Source: an uncultured Alphaproteobacteria bacterium
GTDB lineage: Bacteria; Pseudomonadota; Alphaproteobacteria; Bin95
Reading direction: 5' to 3'
DNA: 52,595 bases
NCBI GenBank assembly: GCA_938083135.1
Contig: CALLKY010000018.1
Location: 1-52,595, forward strand
The notes beneath the pieces were generated by a model. That model was not told where the DNA came from and ran no database searches. It saw only the letters and a program-made list of their open reading frames with translations. This document shows positions 23,017-52,595 of the stretch, in pieces; position 1 is the stretch's first letter, and each line of letters begins with the position of its first letter. The translations under genes and the position numbers were made by a program.

Positions 23017-23985
23017 ATGGCGACTGAATACAAGACACAGGTTCTGATTATCGGCTCCGGGCCTGCGGGTTACACGGCCGCCATTTATGCTGCGCGCGCT
23101 GGGCTTGAGCCAATGATCGTTCAGGGCTTAGCCCCGGGCGGCCAGCTGACGATCACCACAGATGTAGAGAACTACCCCGGATTCGCGGATGTAATCCAAG
23201 GCCCTTGGCTGATGGATCAGATGCGTGAGCAGGCGGAGAAAGTTGGCACCAAGCTCGTGTTCGACCTGATCTCTGACGTGAACTTTGATCAGCGGCCATT
23301 CGTATGCACTGGCGATTCGGGCGACGTGTTCATCGCCGAATCGGTCATCATCGCCACTGGCGCGGAAGCAAAATGGCTTGGCATTGAAAGCGAGCAAAAG
23401 TTCCAAGGGTTTGGTGTTTCAGCCTGTGCGACCTGTGACGGTTTCTTTTTCCGCGGCAAGGAGGTTCTTGTTGTCGGCGGTGGTAACACGGCCGTAGAGG
23501 AAGCGCTGTATCTAACCAATCATGTCTCCAAAGTGACAGTCATTCATCGGCGTGAAGAATTCCGTGCGGAAAAGATCTTGCAGGACCGGTTATTCCGTAA
23601 CCCCAAGATCAAAGTTATTTGGAACACGGTTCTGGAAGAAGTTGTTGGCGGTACGGATCCCCTGGGCGTCACCGGTGCGAAAATCCGAGATACCAAGACC
23701 AATGCTGTTAGTGACTTAAGTGTGGATGGCGTGTTCATCGCCATCGGGCACCGTCCCAACACAGATATCTTCAAAGGCAAGATCACCATGGATGGCGAAG
23801 GCTATATTGAGCCGGTTGACGCTACCACCCGCACGAACGTCACGGGCGTATTTGCTGCAGGCGATGTGCGTGACAAAGTCTACCGCCAAGCTGTGACGGC
23901 TGCGGGGCAGGGCTGCATGGCAGCGCTGGATGCTGAAAAGTATCTGGCAGCACTGGAGGACGCACCGAGCGTCGCCGCGCAATGA
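23017..23985 (+). CDS. trxB: Thioredoxin reductase
   Basis: TrxB passes electrons from NADPH through FAD and a disulfide to thioredoxin. The 322-residue length is typical. It has the FAD loop IIGSGPAGYTAAIYAAR (11-27), the redox pair C137/C140 in SACATCDGFF, the NADPH loop VVGGGNTAVEEALY (152-165) and the C-terminal FAD loop GVFAAGDVRDKVYRQAVTAAGQGCMAA. The ribosome binding site is GAGGAG at 23004-23009. Its stop overlaps the LysR start (ATGA), so the two are probably co-transcribed. Confidence 0.98.
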   Translation: MATEYKTQVLIIGSGPAGYTAAIYAARAGLEPMIVQGLAPGGQLTITTDVENYPGFADVIQGPWLMDQMREQAEKVGTKLVFDLISDVNFDQRPFVCTGDSGDVFIAESVIIATGAEAKWLGIESEQKFQGFGVSACATCDGFFFRGKEVLVVGGGNTAVEEALYLTNHVSKVTVIHRREEFRAEKILQDRLFRNPKIKVIWNTVLEEVVGGTDPLGVTGAKIRDTKTNAVSDLSVDGVFIAIGHRPNTDIFKGKITMDGEGYIEPVDATTRTNVTGVFAAGDVRDKVYRQAVTAAGQGCMAALDAEKYLAALEDAPSVAAQ

Positions 23986-24950
23986 TGCGCTCACGGATGG
24001 ATTGGGACAAACTGCGGGTTTTCCATGCAGTCGCAGATGCTGGCAGCTTTACGCATGCTGGTGAAACGCTGAATCTTTCCCAATCCGCCGTATCACGCCA
24101 AATCCATGCGCTTGAAGAAAGCTTGGATGTTGTGCTGTTCCATCGGCATGCGCGCGGCTTGATCCTGACCGAACAAGGCGAGCTTCTGCACGCCAACGTG
24201 CGCGATGTATTCCATCGCCTGGCGATGACAGAAGCGATGCTGACCGAAAGTAAGGACAGCCCGGAAGGCCCCCTCAAGATCAGCACGACCGTGACATTTG
24301 GGTCGACCTGGCTAACACGTGTGATCAAGAAGTTCATTGCTGATTATCCGACCGTGCAGGTCAGCTTGATCCTAACGGATTCGGACCTTGATATCTCAAT
24401 GCGCGAAGCCGATTGTGCTATCCGGTTTACCGCGCCGACGCAGCCAGACCTTATCCAGAAGCATCTCCGTACGATCCGCTCACGGCTTTATGCGTCGCCG
24501 GATTATCTTCGTGAACACGGCATGCCGACATCAATCGAAGATCTGGATGGGCATCTAATTGTTTTCGGTGACGATACGCCCGCACCTTCGCCAACGATTA
24601 ATTGGCCTATGCAGCTGCGCGTTCATGATCATCAGATTGAGCCGGTGCTTCGCGTCAATAATATTTATGGCATGTACCGGGCAGTGGCGTCGGGGCTAGG
24701 AATTGCCTCATTGCCAAGCTACATGGCGCGGTTGAGCTCTGAGTTGGTGCATGTGTTGCCCGACATGGTTGGCCCAGAAGCGGATATGTACTTTGTCTAT
24801 CCGGAAGAATTGCGGGATACAAAGCGAATTAACGTCTTCCGGGATTTTCTAATCAGGCAGATCGCCGAGTCCTGGAACCCGGTCGCGCCGCGCACCCACG
24901 AGATGAAGACGCGGGTTGGAATAAAGCAATTGGAGCCATCGGCTGATTAG
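23982..24950 (+). CDS. LysR family transcriptional regulator
   Basis: The 322-residue product has a LysR-type winged helix near its N-terminus (WDKLRVFHAVADAGSFTHAGETLNLSQSAVSRQIHALEE) and a LysR substrate-binding domain from about residue 95, starting PEGPLKISTT. The ligand is unknown. Starts are ambiguous: ATG 23982 overlaps the trxB stop, but ATG 23997 (MDWDKL) is the usual family start. Translational coupling to trxB is unusual for a LysR gene, which is more often divergent from its target. A hairpin follows it. Confidence 0.93.
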   Translation: MMRSRMDWDKLRVFHAVADAGSFTHAGETLNLSQSAVSRQIHALEESLDVVLFHRHARGLILTEQGELLHANVRDVFHRLAMTEAMLTESKDSPEGPLKISTTVTFGSTWLTRVIKKFIADYPTVQVSLILTDSDLDISMREADCAIRFTAPTQPDLIQKHLRTIRSRLYASPDYLREHGMPTSIEDLDGHLIVFGDDTPAPSPTINWPMQLRVHDHQIEPVLRVNNIYGMYRAVASGLGIASLPSYMARLSSELVHVLPDMVGPEADMYFVYPEELRDTKRINVFRDFLIRQIAESWNPVAPRTHEMKTRVGIKQLEPSAD

Positions 24951-24958
24951 CAATTTTC

Positions 24959-24981
24959 AGCCATGCGATTTTTGCATGGCT
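24959..24981. terminator. Hairpin after the LysR gene
   Basis: A perfect 8-bp stem (24959-24966 with 24974-24981) with a seven-base T-rich loop. No T-run follows it on the plus strand, so it is at most a weak terminator. Confidence 0.45.
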
Positions 24982-25037
24982 CGTGCGCCTATTTATGACT
25001 GGCGGCGCAGGGATCGGATTCTTATTTTATCACTAGG

Positions 25038-25166
25038 CCGTTGATTGAACGGTCCGGCAGTTGACGAGTCCCGCTTTCGGGCTTTGCTCTCACTGTCGAA
25101 CGTCTCCCAGACGTTAAGCCTCCCTGTTCAATTCCTGCCGGGCCTCAAAGCCCGGCATTTTTTTTT
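25038..25166 (+). ncRNA. Candidate structured RNA / attenuator upstream of the TRAP permease
   Basis: The 342-base gap between the LysR gene and the TRAP permease contains a dense set of stems. Hairpin A pairs 25038-25042 with 25048-25052. A 7-bp outer stem pairs CCGGCAG (25054-25060) with CTGCCGG (25135-25141). Inside lie a CCCG/CGGG hairpin (25070-25073 with 25078-25081) and a perfect 7-bp hairpin with a CCC loop (25099-25105 with 25109-25115). A perfect 8-bp terminator follows (25136-25143 with 25150-25157) with nine T residues to 25166. The outer stem and the terminator compete for the same bases, the geometry of a transcription attenuator. The CCC loop and an adjacent CCTCCC could instead be anti-Shine-Dalgarno motifs of a trans-acting sRNA. 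I recognise no known Rfam class. The remaining 126 bases to the permease hold a further AAAGGGC/GCCCTTT pairing (25201-25207 with 25253-25259). Confidence 0.6.
25136..25166 (+). terminator. Strong intrinsic terminator before the TRAP permease
   Basis: Perfect 8-bp GC stem (25136-25143 with 25150-25157), loop CTCAAA, and a run of nine T. It lies 126 bases upstream of the permease start and ends the candidate RNA above. Confidence 0.93.
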
Positions 25167-25292
25167 GGTTTCCCTGATATTTGCGGTCTTTGGATCATTC
25201 AAAGGGCTTCCATGGCCTGCGTTGGCCCTGCATAATGCGCGCGTGGGCGTTCGCCCTTTCCAAGATGAATTCCGATTTCGCAGGAGCGCCCG

Positions 25293-27302
25293 ATGGCGTC
25301 AAATTCAGACACGTCCGCTAATCTTGATACGTTGATGGTTGATGAGCCACCAGTTGGGCGAATCCGTGGTGCTGTGCGAACGATTATGATCGTGTTCGTC
25401 ATCGCTGCGCTGGTTTTGAATATCAATAAGATCCAGTTGATAAACTTTGTCCTGGATAATTTTACGCCAGCTGCCTTTTTCACTTGGTACACTCAGAATA
25501 TTTATGAACCAACACTTATTATTGATACCTCGTATTACTATGTAATTATTGGATTATTGCTATCGCAAGTCTTCTTGGTGTATCCTTTTTCTAAGAAACA
25601 GGCCAATCATGTTCCTTATTATGATTGGGTGTTATTTGCGCTAACAATCGCCTGCTCTGGCTTCCTGGCCTATAATGGTGAGCGGATCATTCAGGAAGGC
25701 TGGGATATTCGGGCACCGCTGGATGCCACGATTATCGCTGGTGTTATCTGCATGCTATGCCTGGAAGGCGTGCGGCGGGCGGGCGGCGGCATTATGTTTG
25801 GCGTTTGTATCTTCTTCTTCTTCTATCCACTTTTTGCAGAATACATGCCGGGCTTCCTCTGGGGGCCAGAATCAGAGATTCAAGAGTTCGTTCGCCAACA
25901 TGCGATGAGTTCTGAAAGCATCATTGGTGTGCCGATGCGGGCGGTTACGAACCTGCTCATCGGGTTCCTATTGTTTGGTTCAGCACTGGTGGTGACGGGT
26001 GGCGGCGACTTCTTCTTAGCCTTCGCCACATCACTCTTGGGCAAAACTCGCGGTGGGCCAGCTAAAGTAGCCATCATTTCGTCAGGGTTCTTTGGCTCAC
26101 TCTCTGGCTCCGTCATCTCCAACGTTGTGACGACCGGTAAGATCACCATTCCAACGATGAAACGCGTTGGCTATCCGCCTGCATATGCAGGTGCTGTTGA
26201 AGCGTGCGCTTCAACGGGTGGCGCGTTGATGCCGCCAGTCATGGGTGCTGTGGCGTTCTTGATGGCTGAAAACCTGAACATGCCCTATGCCGATATCATT
26301 ATCGCGGCAGCTGTTCCGGCAATTCTTTTCTACCTGGCACTGCTGCTGCAGGTGGACAACTACGCGGCCAAGACGGGCCTGAAGGGCCAGCCTGCCTCTG
26401 AAATTCCGAAGATGTGGCCAACGTTTGTCTCTGGCTGGCATTATCTCTTTAGCTTGGCAGCCCTGATTTACATGCTGCTGGTGATGCGGATTGAGGTGTT
26501 TGCGCCGTATTTCGCAACCCTTCTGCTGATTGTCACAAGCTACCTGACGAACAAATTCCGTGGTGAGCAGACATTCGGGTGGTCGCACTTCGTTGAACTG
26601 ATCATTGATGCAGGCAAAACGATCGTGAACATCGTCGGCATTCTCGTCGGCATTGGTATGATTATCGGCGCGCTGTCATTGACCGGCGTTGGTCCTGCAT
26701 TCTCCAGTGAGCTGCTGCTGTTTGCTGATGGGGACACCTACAAGCTGCTCATCCTTGGCGCGATCACGAGCTTCGTGCTTGGCATGGGGATGACGGTTAC
26801 GGCCTGTTACATCTTCCTGGCAGTCGTGATGGGCTCAGCCATGATCGAGAGCGGGCTGAACCCGGTCGCCGGACATCTGTTCATTCTGTACTGGGGCATG
26901 ATGAGCTACATCACACCTCCAGTTGCCGTCGCTGCCGTGGCTGCATCTACGATCGCGGGTGCACCTGCGATGGAGACTGGGTTCCGGGCCATGCGGCTTG
27001 GCGCAATTCTGTTCGTGCTGCCGTTCATGTTCGCCGTGAACCCAACGCTCATTCTGGTGGGTGAGCCGATGGCCATCTTGCATGACGTTGTTACCGCGAT
27101 CATTGCAGTCTGGATGTTGGCATCTGCGCTGGAAGGCTGGCTCTACTTCTCCGGCCGCCTTATCGGGCCGTTGCGTGTTGTGCTAGCGATGGCCGCCTTC
27201 GGAACGCTGTACCCAGGAACAATGACGGATCTGATCGGTCTGGGCACACTGGCGTTCGTCTATATCGTCAACAGGTTTATGGGTGCCAGGGCGACAGCGT
27301 AG
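25293..27302 (+). CDS. TRAP transporter fused permease (DctQ-DctM, 4TM+12TM)
   Basis: This 669-residue inner-membrane protein fuses the small and large TRAP permease subunits, the form usually paired with TAXI-type substrate-binding proteins for Na+-dependent uptake of organic acids. The first roughly 180 residues carry about five hydrophobic helices; the DctM part follows with FGSLSGSVISNVVTTGKITIPTMKRVGYPPAYAGAVEACASTGGALMPPVMGAVAFLM, whose GSxSGS and STGG/PP motifs are typical. Later GMGMTVTACYI and YITPPVAVAA are also characteristic. No binding protein gene is adjacent, so it is an orphan here. The N-terminal coding segment (about 25500-25620) is visibly AT-richer than its surroundings. 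AGGAG lies eight bases before ATG. Confidence 0.95.
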   Translation: MASNSDTSANLDTLMVDEPPVGRIRGAVRTIMIVFVIAALVLNINKIQLINFVLDNFTPAAFFTWYTQNIYEPTLIIDTSYYYVIIGLLLSQVFLVYPFSKKQANHVPYYDWVLFALTIACSGFLAYNGERIIQEGWDIRAPLDATIIAGVICMLCLEGVRRAGGGIMFGVCIFFFFYPLFAEYMPGFLWGPESEIQEFVRQHAMSSESIIGVPMRAVTNLLIGFLLFGSALVVTGGGDFFLAFATSLLGKTRGGPAKVAIISSGFFGSLSGSVISNVVTTGKITIPTMKRVGYPPAYAGAVEACASTGGALMPPVMGAVAFLMAENLNMPYADIIIAAAVPAILFYLALLLQVDNYAAKTGLKGQPASEIPKMWPTFVSGWHYLFSLAALIYMLLVMRIEVFAPYFATLLLIVTSYLTNKFRGEQTFGWSHFVELIIDAGKTIVNIVGILVGIGMIIGALSLTGVGPAFSSELLLFADGDTYKLLILGAITSFVLGMGMTVTACYIFLAVVMGSAMIESGLNPVAGHLFILYWGMMSYITPPVAVAAVAASTIAGAPAMETGFRAMRLGAILFVLPFMFAVNPTLILVGEPMAILHDVVTAIIAVWMLASALEGWLYFSGRLIGPLRVVLAMAAFGTLYPGTMTDLIGLGTLAFVYIVNRFMGARATA

Positions 27303-33511: not shown

Positions 33512-34750
33512 TTACTTCGTGTGGGCTATTTCTGCTTCAAGCAGCTCACGCACTTCTGCGCGATAAGCCCGGTACCAATCGGTGTTAGGCTTGTAGCCGT
33601 CTTTGGTCGCCTGGAAGATACGAACCCAGCCGCCGCCTTCGTGGTCCTTACGGGTGATCTGCAGCGGGGGCAGAAGGCCACCGAGCGTGTAGTCTTTGAT
33701 CTCGTAGAAACCGTCACGAACGTCGGTGCCAGTAATGTCAGCACTGCCTTTGGCTTTCACAGCATTCTCGATTGCCGCCAGATGGACAGCCGCCTGGAAT
33801 ACGCCGCGATTGTAGTAGGCGGTGTACTGCATTGCGTCGGGTTCTTCCTTGCCCTGCGCTTTGTACATATCGCGGATCTCCTGAAGAACAGGATAGTCCG
33901 AGCCCACACCAGCGAAGTGCATGGTGTTGTAGCCTTCAGCAGCTTCCCAGCCGCCAGAAGCGATGATGTCACCTTCAGACCCGGCCCAAACAAAGCCAAC
34001 GACCTTGTTTAGTGGATAGCCAGCGCGCTTGAATTCTTTCAAGGACACCGATGGCGCACGACCAAACAGATGGCTGATGACGAAGTCAGCACGGAAACGA
34101 CGGGTGATGTCGAGAATCTGCGGGCCCATTTCAACGCCAGGAGGCGGCACGGCGAATGTGCGATAGGTGAAGCCTTCTTTCGGGGCCAGCTTTTCTAGAA
34201 TGGGAATGCCTTCGCGCCCTGCTGGGTTATCATAGAAGATATACGCGATCTTCTTGCCCTTCAGGCTCCCGCCAAGCTGGTCTTTGGCGAACTGAACTGC
34301 GGCTGCTGACTGTGAGTAGTAGCTTGCAGCAATGGGGAACATATACGGATAGCGTTCGCCGTTGCCAGCCAATGCCGTGCCGAAGCCAGCGGAGGTGCCA
34401 GGGATCTTGTCTTCCGCCATTTTCTGAACGAGCGCAAAGACCATCGGCGTACCGTATGGCGATACCAGAACTGCGTTCTGTGTTTTGAACTTCTGATAGG
34501 CTTCAACTGCCGGCGGCACTTTGTACTCGTGGTCAATTTCGTTGACGATGACCTTATTGCCCATGATACCGCCCTTGCTGTTCACAAGGTTCACGTAGTC
34601 ATGGTAGCCAGGGCAAAGTGCGGTGCCGGTAACGGAAGTTGGGCCGGTCCGGTCGCACATAAAGCCGATGACGAGGTCTTTCGCGCTCGCCGTCGACGCT
34701 ATAGCGCTTGCAGCGATCGCTGCCGCGCCAAGCGTTGTCCATATTTTCAT
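33512..34750 (-). CDS. livK: Branched-chain amino acid/aromatic acid ABC transporter substrate-binding protein
   Basis: The 412-residue periplasmic protein has a signal peptide (about 1-23, cleaving after SASA) and a type 1 periplasmic binding fold: IGFMCDRTGPTSVTGTALC at the N-terminus, then VKIAYIFYDNPAGREG-like core and a C-terminal lobe. The ligand is unknown; the context of an acyl-CoA ligase and a BadI-like enzyme points to a carboxylic acid rather than an amino acid. GGGAGG lies eight bases before ATG. It lies within the operon, 44 bases after livM. Confidence 0.93.
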   Translation of the reverse strand: MKIWTTLGAAAIAASAIASTASAKDLVIGFMCDRTGPTSVTGTALCPGYHDYVNLVNSKGGIMGNKVIVNEIDHEYKVPPAVEAYQKFKTQNAVLVSPYGTPMVFALVQKMAEDKIPGTSAGFGTALAGNGERYPYMFPIAASYYSQSAAAVQFAKDQLGGSLKGKKIAYIFYDNPAGREGIPILEKLAPKEGFTYRTFAVPPPGVEMGPQILDITRRFRADFVISHLFGRAPSVSLKEFKRAGYPLNKVVGFVWAGSEGDIIASGGWEAAEGYNTMHFAGVGSDYPVLQEIRDMYKAQGKEEPDAMQYTAYYNRGVFQAAVHLAAIENAVKAKGSADITGTDVRDGFYEIKDYTLGGLLPPLQITRKDHEGGGWVRIFQATKDGYKPNTDWYRAYRAEVRELLEAEIAHTK

Positions 34751-34794
34751 TGTTATTTCCTCCCGTTGTTAAGTCCTCTACCGGCGATCCTTCG

Positions 34795-35862
34795 CTAGTA
34801 GGAGAACGGCCAGACCCGGAAGTAATTCCGGATGTTAATCCACAAGCGATTGAGGCCTTCGGGTTCCATGATCAGGAATATAATGATCAGTGAACCGAAC
34901 ACGATCAGCCGCATCTGCGATATGATAGAGGCGAGGGCTTCGGGCTCTAGGAAGAGTGAGCCGACATTCTCCATGAACAGCCGGATGCCGATGGGCAGAA
35001 GCGTGATGAAGAATGCGCCCAGCACCGAGCCCAGGATTGAGCCGAGGCCGCCAATAATGATCATCGCCAGATAGTCGATGGATACGACCAGCGTAAACTG
35101 CTCGTAAGAGGCGATGCCAAGGTAGTAGGTATATAGAACGCCCGTAACGCCTGCATAAAACGATGAAATACCAAAGGCATACAGCTTGTACTTAAACACA
35201 CTGATGCCAATAATTTCTGCCGCGATATCCTGGTCTCGAATAGCGATGAAGGCGCGCCCGATCCGGCTCCGGATGAGATTCTGGGTGCAGACAATGGCAA
35301 TCGCTGCAATGGTCACCAGGAACATATAGAGCTCAACCGCCTGATCCAATTTCCAGCCCAAGATGGTTGGGCGGTCAATCTCGATGGAGGCTTGAACGCC
35401 GCCAGAAATCGACGGGGAATGGTTGATAATCCACTCAATGATAAACTGTGCAGCAAGCGTGGCGATGGCGAGATAGATGCCCTTAATGCGCAGGCTCGGG
35501 ATGCCAACGACAAGCCCGATCGCGGCGGCCATTAAGCCACCGGCAGGCAGGGTTAGCAGGAACGGCATATCCAGCTTGGTAACAAGGTTGGCAGCGGTAT
35601 AGGCACCGACAGACATAAAGGCAGCGTGGCCAATGGAAAGCTGGCCTGCGTATCCGACCAGGATATTGAGCCCAAGTGCGCCGACAACAGCAATGGCAAC
35701 CAAGCTCAGCAAGGTAAGCTGATACTCGCCTAATAGAAGCGGGGCGGCGACAAAGAAAAGCAGCACCATCAGTCCGACTGAAAACCGCGAAATAGGCAGC
35801 GCGTAGAGCGTCATATCCCGCTTATAGTCAGTCTTGTACTCGCCTGATTCCCGATAAAACAT
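34795..35862 (-). CDS. livM: ABC transporter permease LivM
   Basis: The 355-residue integral membrane protein has about nine to ten hydrophobic helices and the family motifs LNILVGYAGQLSIGHAAFMSVGAY (about 83-107) and SIDYLAMIIIGGLGSILGSVLGAFF, where the glycine-rich segment contacts the ATPases. The start ATG is four bases after the livH stop (TAG), so translation is likely coupled. An N-terminal 18-residue extension (MFYRESGEYKTDYKRDMT) precedes the first helix. Confidence 0.95.
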   Translation of the reverse strand: MFYRESGEYKTDYKRDMTLYALPISRFSVGLMVLLFFVAAPLLLGEYQLTLLSLVAIAVVGALGLNILVGYAGQLSIGHAAFMSVGAYTAANLVTKLDMPFLLTLPAGGLMAAAIGLVVGIPSLRIKGIYLAIATLAAQFIIEWIINHSPSISGGVQASIEIDRPTILGWKLDQAVELYMFLVTIAAIAIVCTQNLIRSRIGRAFIAIRDQDIAAEIIGISVFKYKLYAFGISSFYAGVTGVLYTYYLGIASYEQFTLVVSIDYLAMIIIGGLGSILGSVLGAFFITLLPIGIRLFMENVGSLFLEPEALASIISQMRLIVFGSLIIIFLIMEPEGLNRLWINIRNYFRVWPFSY

Positions 35863-35866
35863 CGAC

Positions 35867-36763
35867 CTAGATCCTCTCGATCAATTTACGGCCGAATAGT
35901 CCATACGGTCTTATCATGAGCATTATGATCATCAGGACATAAGGTGCGAAATCCTTCGTGCCGCCGCCGACATAGGGGTCGATAAATCCAGAGGCCAGCG
36001 CCTCGACCAGGCCGATGATAATGCCGCCGACGATAACGCCGATAATCGAGTCGAGGCCGCCCAGGATCACAACTGGGAACACTTTCAGGCCGACCAGGGC
36101 AAGCTGCGTATCAACACCACTCATGCTGCCCCAAAGCACCCCGCCCAGCATCGCGACGACGCCAGCCATGACCCAGGCCAGCGCGAAATATTTCTCAACG
36201 TTGATGCCCATGGCGGAGGACACTTGATGGCTATCCGCGACGGCGCGCATGGCAACGCCTTTACGGGTCTTCAGGAAGAACCACCCAAACCCCAGCAGAA
36301 AGAGGATACTGACGCCTGCACCAACCAGCTGAATCGGGGAGAAGAAGAAGGGGCCGAAAATCACTGGGGAATCGGGAATTGGCAGCTCCAGCCCACGTGG
36401 CGCAGAGCCAAACACCATCGGCCCGAACCCGCGTAAAATCGCCGCCAGGCCAATCGTCGCCATGATGATAGACACAATTGGGCGACCAATAAGTGGCCTT
36501 AGAACAACGCGTTCCAGGCCAATATTAAACAGAACCATGAAGACGAGGCCTGCGAACAAGGCCAACCAAAGCGGGAAGCCATAAGCGTCACTAGCCAGAG
36601 CAGCGATCACAATGCCAGCGATCATGACAAATTCGCCCTGGGCGAAGTTGATCGCATCTGTCGCCTTGTAGATCAGCACAAACCCAAGTGCGACCAGCGA
36701 GTACATCAGCCCATTGGCAACGCCTTGACCGGCGAGCTCAATGGCAAAGGGTAAATCACCCAT
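35867..36763 (-). CDS. livH: ABC transporter permease LivH
   Basis: The 298-residue membrane protein shows the LivH signatures GVANGLMYSLVALGFVLIYKATDAINFAQGEFVMI (about 14-48) and FPVVILGGLDSIIGVIVGGIIIG. About eight hydrophobic helices are present. The ribosome binding site GGGAG lies seven bases before ATG. It follows the acyl-CoA ligase after 11 bases and precedes livM after four. Confidence 0.96.
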   Translation of the reverse strand: MGDLPFAIELAGQGVANGLMYSLVALGFVLIYKATDAINFAQGEFVMIAGIVIAALASDAYGFPLWLALFAGLVFMVLFNIGLERVVLRPLIGRPIVSIIMATIGLAAILRGFGPMVFGSAPRGLELPIPDSPVIFGPFFFSPIQLVGAGVSILFLLGFGWFFLKTRKGVAMRAVADSHQVSSAMGINVEKYFALAWVMAGVVAMLGGVLWGSMSGVDTQLALVGLKVFPVVILGGLDSIIGVIVGGIIIGLVEALASGFIDPYVGGGTKDFAPYVLMIIMLMIRPYGLFGRKLIERI

Positions 36764-36774
36764 CCTAAATCTCC

Positions 36775-38664
36775 CTAAGCCGCATCTTGGATGGAAAGGC
36801 GCATATCGACATGGCTTTTCCGTCCATCTTCAAATGTCACTTCTGCGCGCAGATCGACTGCATCCTGGCCGCCATAAAAGGCGTCAATCACGCCTGCATA
36901 ATGTTCGGCGATGTAGCCTCGGCGCAGCTTTCGTGTCCGGGTAATTTCCGCATCATCAGCATCAAAATCTTTGCCAAGGAGCAGAAATCGTTTGATCTGT
37001 AAGGCGTCTGGCAGTGTCCGGTTAATTCGGGTGACTTCATCACTGATGAGCTGGCGCACTTCGTCCTTCTGCGCCAAATCAAGGTAATTGGTGTAGGGCA
37101 GGGCTTTGCGTTCAGCCCATTTCCCAACGGTGTTGAAATCAATTGCGATCATCGCGCAGACATGCGGCCGTTCATGACCGAAGGAGATTGCTTCGCTGAT
37201 ATAGGCACTATATTTCAGCTTGTTTTCAACGAATTGCGGCGCAAACGCAGAGCCATCGGTGAGCTTGCCGACATCTTTGGCGCGATCAATGATGGTGAGT
37301 TCACCATCAGGGTCCAGCACGCCAGCGTCGCCAGTTTTGAACCATTCGCCGTCAACGAAGGCATCTTTTGTCGCTTCCTCGTTCTTGTAGTAGCCCTTGA
37401 AGACGCCGTCGCTTTTCACGAGCACTTCGCCACTTTCGGCGATGCGGACCTGGATGCCGTCGCAAGCTTTGCCAACGGTGTCTGGATTGGCATTGGTATT
37501 CGATTGAATAGAGCCCAACCCGCTGATTTCCGTGGAGCCATAAACTTGCTTCAGGTTAACCCCGAAGGCGCGGAAAAAGCGGAATGTATCTGGGCCGAGC
37601 GGCGCACCGCCCGTGAGCGCCCAGCGCGAGCGGCGAAGACCAAATTGATCCCGAACCGGCGCATACACAAGGTATTCGCCAAGGAACTGCATGAATTTGT
37701 CGCCGCCTGAAAGCGTCTCGCCTTCCTCTTCCTTGCGCCGATATTCGATCGCTGCATCTTTGAATTTATTGAAAACTGCCCGCTTTATGCCAGACAGGTC
37801 TTCAGCCTTAACTTGGATTTCGGAAAGGATGCTTTCCCAAACACGGGGCGCTGCGATCAGGCCCGTTGGACCTAACTCGCGGAGATCGCGCTGTAGGGTT
37901 TCTGGGCTTTCGGGGCAGTTCGTAGAGGCACCTGTCAGAATGCTGGTCACGACACTGTAGGTCGCGTCGCCAACCCAGGCCATTGGCAAATAGGAGATGA
38001 AGTCGTCCGTCTCCCGAACGTCTTCAACTGCCGTAAACGCGCGCCCGACACACAGCATATTGCTATGGGAAAGCATAACGCCTTTGGGCCGTCCGGTGGT
38101 GCCAGAGGTGTAGCACATATAAGCGATGGTATCGGAAGTGATCGCCCGGACATCGCTTTCATAGGATGCGCTATCGGCAGACTTTCCAAGCTCCTGAATG
38201 CTATCGAAGGATTTCAGCAGCGGTTCTTCATATTCGCCAAGCCCACGACCATCGTCATAGATGATGCCTTTCAGGCCAGGAAGCTGATCGATGATGGAGA
38301 GAATTTTGTCCACCTGTTCCTGATCTTCAGTGACAACGAATGACGTGTCTGCGTCCGCAAGCACGTAAGCCAGTTCGGACGCGATTGAGTCTTGAAAGAC
38401 TGGTACTGCTGCGCCGCCCAAAGCTTGCGCCGCAATTTGCGCCCAATAAAGGCGCGGGCGGTTGTCACCAATCACGCTCAGCTTGTCGCCGAGCCCGAAA
38501 CCCATGGATTTCAGCCCAAGGGCGAAATGGCGAACCTCAGCTTCGTAATCAGCCCAGGTGTAAGTCTGCCAGATGCCGTGGAACTTCTCACGCATGGCGG
38601 GCTTGTCGCTGCGGTTCTTAGCGTTGTCCAGAACTGCGGCTGGAATGGATTGCGCATCAGACAT
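36775..38664 (-). CDS. AMP-dependent acyl-CoA synthetase (long-chain or aromatic acid CoA ligase type)
   Basis: The 629-residue ANL-superfamily enzyme activates a carboxylic acid to an acyl-CoA via an acyl-AMP. The adenylate motif YTSGTTGRPKG (about 193-203) and the later GSTEISG, WFKTGDAGVLDPDG and RAKDVGKL segments are present. It is the FadD15/COG1022 kind rather than a small benzoate-CoA ligase. The frame is open a further 56 codons upstream, but homologous sequence begins at MSDAQS (ATG 38662-38664). It sits between livG and livH, so the imported acid is probably trapped as a CoA ester. The substrate is not predictable from sequence. Confidence 0.92.
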   Translation of the reverse strand: MSDAQSIPAAVLDNAKNRSDKPAMREKFHGIWQTYTWADYEAEVRHFALGLKSMGFGLGDKLSVIGDNRPRLYWAQIAAQALGGAAVPVFQDSIASELAYVLADADTSFVVTEDQEQVDKILSIIDQLPGLKGIIYDDGRGLGEYEEPLLKSFDSIQELGKSADSASYESDVRAITSDTIAYMCYTSGTTGRPKGVMLSHSNMLCVGRAFTAVEDVRETDDFISYLPMAWVGDATYSVVTSILTGASTNCPESPETLQRDLRELGPTGLIAAPRVWESILSEIQVKAEDLSGIKRAVFNKFKDAAIEYRRKEEEGETLSGGDKFMQFLGEYLVYAPVRDQFGLRRSRWALTGGAPLGPDTFRFFRAFGVNLKQVYGSTEISGLGSIQSNTNANPDTVGKACDGIQVRIAESGEVLVKSDGVFKGYYKNEEATKDAFVDGEWFKTGDAGVLDPDGELTIIDRAKDVGKLTDGSAFAPQFVENKLKYSAYISEAISFGHERPHVCAMIAIDFNTVGKWAERKALPYTNYLDLAQKDEVRQLISDEVTRINRTLPDALQIKRFLLLGKDFDADDAEITRTRKLRRGYIAEHYAGVIDAFYGGQDAVDLRAEVTFEDGRKSHVDMRLSIQDAA

Positions 38665-38680
38665 GGATTGTGCTGGCTCC

Positions 38681-39487
38681 CTAGTCTTGCAGATGCGAGG
38701 CGCCGAGATAGGCGCGGATAACGGCTGGATCAGCCTTGACGACGTCTGGCGTGCCGTCAGCAATTTTTTCGCCTTGGTCCAGTACGACGATGTGATCTGA
38801 AATATCCATGACGACGCCCATGTCATGCTCAATCAGTACGATGGTGGTGCCGAATTCGGCATTCACATCAAGGACATAGCGCACCATGTCTTCTTTCTCT
38901 TCCTGGTTCATGCCGGCCATCGGCTCGTCCAGGAGCAGGAGAGTGGGGTCGAGCGCTAAGGCGCGGCCTAGCTCCACACGCTTTTGCAAGCCGTATGCAA
39001 GTTCGCCGGTGGTCATACGCCTGAGGTCGGTGATGCGCAGGAAGTCGATAATCTCTTCCGCCCGTTTGCGGTGCTCGACTTCTTCCTTCTGTGCCGCACC
39101 CCAATAAAGGATCGAGCTGAGGATGCCAGATTTCATGCGGACATGACGCCCGAGCATTAAGTTGTCGAGAACGGTGAGTCCGTGGAAAAGTGCGATATTC
39201 TGGAAAGTTCGGGCGATGCCTTGCTCTGCGATCTGGCTAGGACGCTTGCCGATCAGCTCTGTGCCATCAAACGTGATGGAGCCCTGATCGGCCTTGTAGA
39301 AGCCGCTGATCATATTGACGAGGGAGGTCTTGCCAGCACCATTCGGGCCGATGATCGAAAAGATCGATCCGCGCTCTACATCCAGGCTGACCTCCTTCAC
39401 GGCTTGGACGCCACCAAAACTCTTGGCCACGCTACGCACGCTCAGGATCGCATCGGATTCGCCGCCGCCATTGCTCACGTCGAGCAT
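38681..39487 (-). CDS. livG: ABC transporter ATP-binding protein LivG
   Basis: The 268-residue ATPase has Walker A IIGPNGAGKTSLVNM (about 43-57), signature LAYGLQKRVELGRALA, Walker B LLLLDEPMAGMN and an H-loop VLIEHDM. It starts with an N-terminal extension (MLDVSNGGGES) before the ILSVRSVAKSFGG core. ATG 39485-39487 follows GGGAGG by seven bases; a TTG at 39490 is a less likely start. It is the first gene of the liv operon and lies 118 bases downstream of the flavoprotein gene. Confidence 0.95.
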   Translation of the reverse strand: MLDVSNGGGESDAILSVRSVAKSFGGVQAVKEVSLDVERGSIFSIIGPNGAGKTSLVNMISGFYKADQGSITFDGTELIGKRPSQIAEQGIARTFQNIALFHGLTVLDNLMLGRHVRMKSGILSSILYWGAAQKEEVEHRKRAEEIIDFLRITDLRRMTTGELAYGLQKRVELGRALALDPTLLLLDEPMAGMNQEEKEDMVRYVLDVNAEFGTTIVLIEHDMGVVMDISDHIVVLDQGEKIADGTPDVVKADPAVIRAYLGASHLQD

Positions 39488-39608
39488 CAAGCGTCCTCCC
39501 TGTAAATCTTCAGCCAGCGTCTAGCGCGCTGTTTTGCTTGGGAGGAAGGTTAGGACGATCTGTCGCAATCGCGCAAGCGACTTTATTTAGGAAAAGTAAA
39601 TGAGCCAA

Positions 39609-52503: not shown

Positions 52504-52595
52504 GGACAGGTGGGTGAGTGGCTTAAACCAGTGGATTGCTAATCCGCCGTACGGATAATTCTGTACCGAGGGTTCGAATCCCTCCTTGTCCGCCA
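52504..52595 (+). tRNA. tRNA-Ser (anticodon GCU)
   Basis: The acceptor arms GGACAGG (52504-52510) and CTTGTCC pair with one G-T wobble, followed by the discriminator G and an encoded CCA at 52593-52595. The anticodon loop TTGCTAA has GCT, reading AGC/AGU serine codons. A long variable arm with GTACGG/CTGTAC is the class II signature for Ser. The T arm GAGGGTTCGAATCCCTC is intact. The gene ends exactly at the window edge. Confidence 0.95.

Follow-up and report, generated by a model that had tools for sequence, protein, structure and literature searches.

Results

A Structured Element Lies Behind trxB and lsrB

The window, by which we mean the whole 52,595-nt stretch of DNA analyzed here, carries on its + strand a gene for thioredoxin-disulfide reductase (trxB, 23017-23985; NCBIfam TIGR01292, 414.9 bits against a cut-off of 343). 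It is overlapped by a LysR-type regulator gene of the lsrB/vtlR kind on the same strand (23982-24950; Pfam HTH_1 and LysR_substrate), whose product has only one cysteine, Cys145, and is the candidate activator of the RNA described below. This trxB-lsrB/vtlR arrangement has been published for Rhizobiales and described as well conserved in the class (PMC7486931). About 90 bp past the end of the pair begins a structured element at 25038-25166 (+), for which we assign a putative 5′ end and place the 3′ end at a U-run. Its downstream neighbor, outside the element, is a TRAP transporter fused permease gene (25293-27302, +; TIGR02123, 572 bits). Elsewhere in the window, a tRNA gene (52504-52592, +) is the sole Rfam match at gathering score.

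Two Helices Covary Around a Near-Invariant Linker

The segment 25038-25167 folds at -52.9 kcal/mol, compared with -33.0 ± 3.5 for shuffled sequences (z = -5.8), and the conserved part is a 3′ module of 65-70 nt. In this module, a hairpin that closes on a CCC loop and shows covariation is followed by the single-stranded motif ACCUCCCUGUU/GCCUCCCUGUU and then by a terminator ending in a U-run. The hairpin, AACGTCT-CCC-AGACGTT (25099-25115, +), presents a first anti-Shine-Dalgarno (anti-SD) tract, CUCCC, at its loop (25106-25108). A second anti-SD tract lies in the linker GCCTCCCTGTT (25118-25128, +), which is nearly invariant across the family, as is its form CCUCCCUGUU between the two helices; its GCCUCC is predicted to be unpaired in the window with a probability of 0.92-1.0. 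A terminator scan places the intrinsic terminator at 25136-25166 (+), with a stem at 25136-25157 followed by nine U. Farther upstream, a possible 5′ hairpin, CCGTT-GATTG-AACGG (25038-25052, +), lines up with TGTTGCNNCGCAGCA, the 5′ hairpin seen in Azospirillum and others; in the window's minimum-energy fold this segment pairs instead with a segment around 25124-25133.

Both helices are supported by covariation. Across 82 distinct sequences, two-sided changes occur in 11/12 pairs of the two helices together and in 6/6 modeled pairs of the CCC-loop hairpin, with 93% of cells paired in the hairpin and 98% in the terminator stem. The covariation score is 0.443 vs. 0.116 in shuffles, none of 500 shuffles reaches 0.443, and structures slid along the alignment score at most 0.07. 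The 82-sequence alignment was fitted to the model, so these figures are biased toward the structure; compensated changes in the CGTC-GACG hairpin are also seen in a plain MAFFT alignment. One might suppose that the element merely terminates the trxB-lsrB operon and regulates nothing, and a strong intrinsic terminator is indeed present there. That reading is scarcely credible, however: it leaves unexplained the near-invariant unpaired linker, the second covarying hairpin, and the palindrome upstream, which accompanies the element (below).

The Element Is Conserved with lsrB Rather than with the Permease

The 3′ part of the element was recovered by DNA search in 12/40 relatives, and a separate protein search for the LysR regulator placed most of those matches directly behind its orthologue. 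In most fetched loci, a strikingly constant block, ACGTCTCCCAGACGTGAAGCCTCCCTGTTCAACT, followed by a terminator, lies on the same strand 3′ of lsrB. The block is present in 47/57 lsrB loci of the genome collection, which span Azospirillum, Skermanella, Roseomonas, Elioraea, Terasakiella, Rhodovarius, and uncultured lineages. When a Rhodobacter-like family is pooled in and a SorY-type motif is allowed, 94/112 loci have the module or its SorY-type version downstream of lsrB in the same orientation, irrespective of the next gene. A covariance model, R1, was derived from 21 sequences; it gives the window's core 80.8 bits and matches 202/385 sampled class genomes at E ≤ 0.01, an upper figure for the exact family because weak matches can be related anti-SD sRNAs (small RNAs); the window's genome itself has two such weaker matches, at 27-30 bits, one of them MmgR and the other a BjrC1505-like RNA. 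Among the best 30 R1 matches, 12 have no lsrB inside the fetched flanks, so linkage to lsrB is common and not universal. An RNA gene of this kind behind lsrB is widespread through much of Alphaproteobacteria. In one locus (L029:2390-3200), apparent tandem units follow lsrB, with two palindromes, several CCTCCC hairpins, and two R1 matches, reminiscent of the tandem abcR1-abcR2 genes.

A sequence-only reading of this region had interpreted it as a leader element of the TRAP permease, a cis-acting riboswitch or attenuator in which a 7-bp antiterminator stem (CCGGCAG, 25054-25060, with CTGCCGG, 25135-25141) competes with an 8-bp terminator (TGCCGGGC, 25136-25143, with GCCCGGCA, 25150-25157, then nine T). 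Both stems exist as described, the two further hairpins it saw inside are real, and the permease starts about 127 nt past the U-run. By chance, 2.2% of shuffles offer the terminator arm a perfect 7-bp partner under strict pairing, and 47% do so when G-U pairs are allowed. However, the minimum-energy fold forms the terminator and lacks the 7-bp stem, which is also broken in the nearest relative (L003, 89% identical), where CCAGCAG faces TTGCCGG with an A-C mismatch. A further pairing proposed just before the permease (AAAGGGC, 25201-25207, with GCCCTTT, 25253-25259) can be drawn but is at chance level and carries no meaning, since some perfect 7-bp stem occurs in 45% of shuffles of 25167-25292.

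Comparative evidence also argues against a permease switch. Covarying homologues, which the same reading proposed to look for, were found, but only the window and its near-twin (L016/L075) have the TRAP permease behind the element; the downstream gene otherwise varies, and the conserved neighbor is lsrB, upstream. Rfam riboswitches give no match even at E up to 10, and the permease's ribosome-binding site behaves as an ordinary partner of the RNA (-13.1 kcal/mol). We therefore reject a switch with conserved exclusive stems and a conserved downstream gene, and consider any cis-acting control of the permease very unlikely. The comparative evidence favors instead what had been offered as the alternative, a standalone sRNA with anti-SD motifs in its CCC loop and CCTCCC tract.

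A Conserved Palindrome Precedes the Probable sRNA Gene

Between lsrB and the sRNA lies a palindrome, GCCATGCGATTTTTGCATGGC (24960-24980, +), a candidate LsrB site of the form T-N11-A. Its conserved core, ATGC-N7-GCAT, agrees with this LysR rule; 82/90 distinct lsrB-sRNA intergenic regions match the core at no fewer than 7 of its 8 positions, compared with a mean of 13 and a maximum of 23 in dinucleotide shuffles; the 82 regions are not independent events, because related species are counted separately. It mostly sits 110-180 nt upstream of the sRNA core, at a near-fixed distance. The published LsrB/VtlR box is GCAT-N3-TG-N3-T (PMC7486931, PMC8844928). This box occurs in 15/90 regions vs. 2.7 expected, coinciding in eight of the 15 with the palindrome's right half, and the window's palindrome departs from the published Rhizobiales box in its 3′ part (GCATGGCTCGTGC). 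The palindrome is also kept, 144-180 nt upstream, in 7/12 sRNA copies that lack lsrB, three of the seven coming from one genus, which marks it as a feature of the sRNA rather than of the lsrB gene end. These seven copies (L058, L059, L061, L063, L065, L068, and L074) are probably moved or duplicated regulon members.

A T/A-rich block, TATTTTAT (25023-25030, +), is a candidate -10 element and keeps a constant distance from the palindrome in most relatives. A promoter scan called no sigma-70-type promoter. One possibility is that the sRNA is not independently transcribed and is released from a 3′ untranslated region (3′ UTR), as SorX is from that of an OmpR-type gene (PMC6238624, PMC9438474). 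The element shares the strand of lsrB and sits close behind it, and SorX is the window's best Rfam match, albeit below threshold (32.2 bits, cut-off 46.6). On the other hand, the palindrome and the -10-like block stand at a conserved distance, copies distant from lsrB have the same palindrome, and AbcR1 and SorY have promoters of their own (PMC8844928, PMC6238624). Release from an lsrB transcript is therefore unlikely.

Taking the conserved sequence and structure, the covariation, the lsrB synteny, and the conserved palindrome together, we read 25038-25166 as an independently transcribed, trans-acting anti-SD sRNA gene that is probably activated by LsrB, and not as a permease switch, with a probability of roughly 0.87.

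The Probable sRNA Resembles AbcR and SorY and Falls Outside Known Families

The sRNA is best explained as the positional counterpart of AbcR1/2 of rhizobia. In S. meliloti and A. tumefaciens, AbcR1 and AbcR2 adjoin lsrB/vtlR (PMC7486931); S. meliloti AbcR1, encoded beside lsrB, requires LsrB and acts on transporter mRNAs through two anti-SD motifs (PMC8844928). Like these RNAs (ar15, RF02345; Sinorhizobium, Agrobacterium, Brucella), which lie beside lsrB/vtlR behind trxB, the window's sRNA follows trxB-lsrB (23017-24950), has two anti-SD motifs, placed in a hairpin loop and in a linker, and ends in an intrinsic terminator (25136-25166). The motifs themselves are a CUCCC loop and a GCCUCCCUGUU linker here and CUCCUCCC and UUCCCCUC in AbcR. 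Where published AbcR cases have an LsrB/VtlR-dependent promoter, the window's sRNA has the conserved palindrome with its partial fit to the published box, and where AbcR represses ABC-transporter mRNAs in an Hfq-dependent manner, we predict complementarity to a livG-type gene and a family-5 solute-binding protein gene.

The sRNA probably works like AbcR, yet by the available test it is no sequence member of ar15: that model (cut-off 40 bits) gives no match in the window region at E up to 10, and membership by model score is rejected. Nor does ar15 reach its cut-off in any genome of two class samples, including 0/385 class genomes under strict filters in a sample without any genome known to hold AbcR, so the comparison rests on published descriptions of AbcR.

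Several other Rfam families share parts of this architecture. SorY (RF02651, Rhodobacter sphaeroides) has the same CCUCCCUGUU linker and a terminator; the hairpin before the linker is a different one, and after CUGUU one of the two RNAs carries CAAUU instead of the other's GGACU. SorX (RF02784) shows the same order of hairpin, CUCCCUGUU linker, and terminator, though it differs from the window's sRNA as we read it in its 3′ UTR origin. MmgR/suhB (RF00519) likewise combines a hairpin, a CUCCCU tract, and a terminator. Membership is rejected for all three, with the window scoring 23.3 bits for SorY (cut-off 111), 28.4 bits for MmgR (cut-off 41), and below the SorX cut-off as given above; indeed, the lsrB-linked sRNA matches no Rfam family at cut-off. 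Because the window's genome holds a separate MmgR above the cut-off (54.5 bits; L133), the window's sRNA is a different RNA. A BjrC1505-like sRNA at 37.8 bits, below its cut-off, is also present in that genome (L132 and L133, on C12 and C30, for the two RNAs). The core sequence appears in no paper of the open collection that we searched, nor in the main text of an A. brasilense sRNA paper (PMC7685610).

In one family tested, that of genome G035, which we infer to be Rhodobacteraceae, SorY-type sRNAs fill the same slot behind lsrB. The SorY model finds matches in 26 of 31 genomes, all below cut-off (best 69 bits). The best SorY-like match per genome (L139-L163) is preceded by an lsrB orthologue in the same orientation in 25/25 cases, nearly all with the palindrome, while lower-scoring matches (L164-L168) have no lsrB nearby. 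The alignment of locus L043 to SorY covers all 83 positions and contains an identical 22-nt stretch, CUUCAUACCUCCCUGUUGGACU. Because the best SorY-like matches lie directly behind lsrB, usually with the palindrome, these data suggest that SorY belongs to the LsrB circuit, a link found nowhere in the papers searched. The takP gene is a TRAP-transporter gene. In R. sphaeroides, SorY acts on takP mRNA by altering its stability and is transcribed from a promoter of its own (PMC6238624).

A broader reading, to which we give even odds, is that a single ancient sRNA lineage unites the AbcR RNAs of Rhizobiales, the Rhodobacter-like family's SorY, and the window's RNA. Across Alphaproteobacteria this lineage would have kept its place beside the redox-related activator gene lsrB while diverging beyond any single Rfam model, forming a class-wide circuit from thiol/redox state to nutrient uptake. 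If so, a pairing of regulator and sRNA described so far for a few rhizobia and for Brucella would extend across the class, plant-growth-promoting Azospirillum included, and SorY, which the papers found treat as an RNA of its own, would join the same LsrB circuit. For an sRNA outside Rfam, the analysis supplies a covariance model together with a promoter motif that can be tested, in genera with genetic tools.

Predicted Targets Include Nutrient-Uptake Genes

By analogy with AbcR and SorY, from which we take over transcription, LsrB activation, use of Hfq, and targets, the circuit could operate as follows. LsrB, the redox-related LysR regulator encoded just upstream, would bind the palindrome at 24960-24980 and activate an sRNA of about 128 nt that stops at an intrinsic terminator of its own. 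This sRNA would then pair, probably with the help of Hfq, with mRNAs for uptake and metabolism at their ribosome-binding sites, and covering these sites would probably block translation of nutrient-uptake mRNAs. Predicted targets are a livG-type operon in the window, a family-5 solute-binding protein, and a CoA-transferase.

We searched for targets with two seed patterns in the window's genome and among the window's own genes. In the genome there are 15 occurrences of the seed CAGGGAGG ahead of an ATG vs. one for a reversed control pattern, an excess partly due to ordinary Shine-Dalgarno sequence. Credible gene starts among these matches are those of the livG-type ATPase, the family-5 solute-binding protein, and a 3-oxoacid CoA-transferase subunit, together with rplB and, by eye, infB; with such housekeeping genes among the matches, the predicted list is not specific. 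Within the window, the predicted site is the ribosome-binding site ACAGGGAGG (39485-39503, -) of a livG-type ABC ATPase, with a 9-nt perfect complement of CCUCCCUGU. This gene heads a branched-chain amino-acid-type ABC uptake operon (33512-39490, -), and its site, at -22.1 kcal/mol, is the second best of 46 window genes; the best-scoring gene is doubtful, as an internal alternative start was used for it. The livG complement is kept only in the near-twin, the closest relative, and differs in other, more distant congeners, so the targets stand as predictions. The start of the family-5 solute-binding protein gene (SBP_bac_5), AACAGGGAGG, offers a 10-nt complement of the sRNA. At a 3-oxoacid CoA-transferase subunit gene (L189:206-826), CAGGGAGGCTT before the start is an 11-nt perfect complement of the linker sequence AAGCCUCCCUG.
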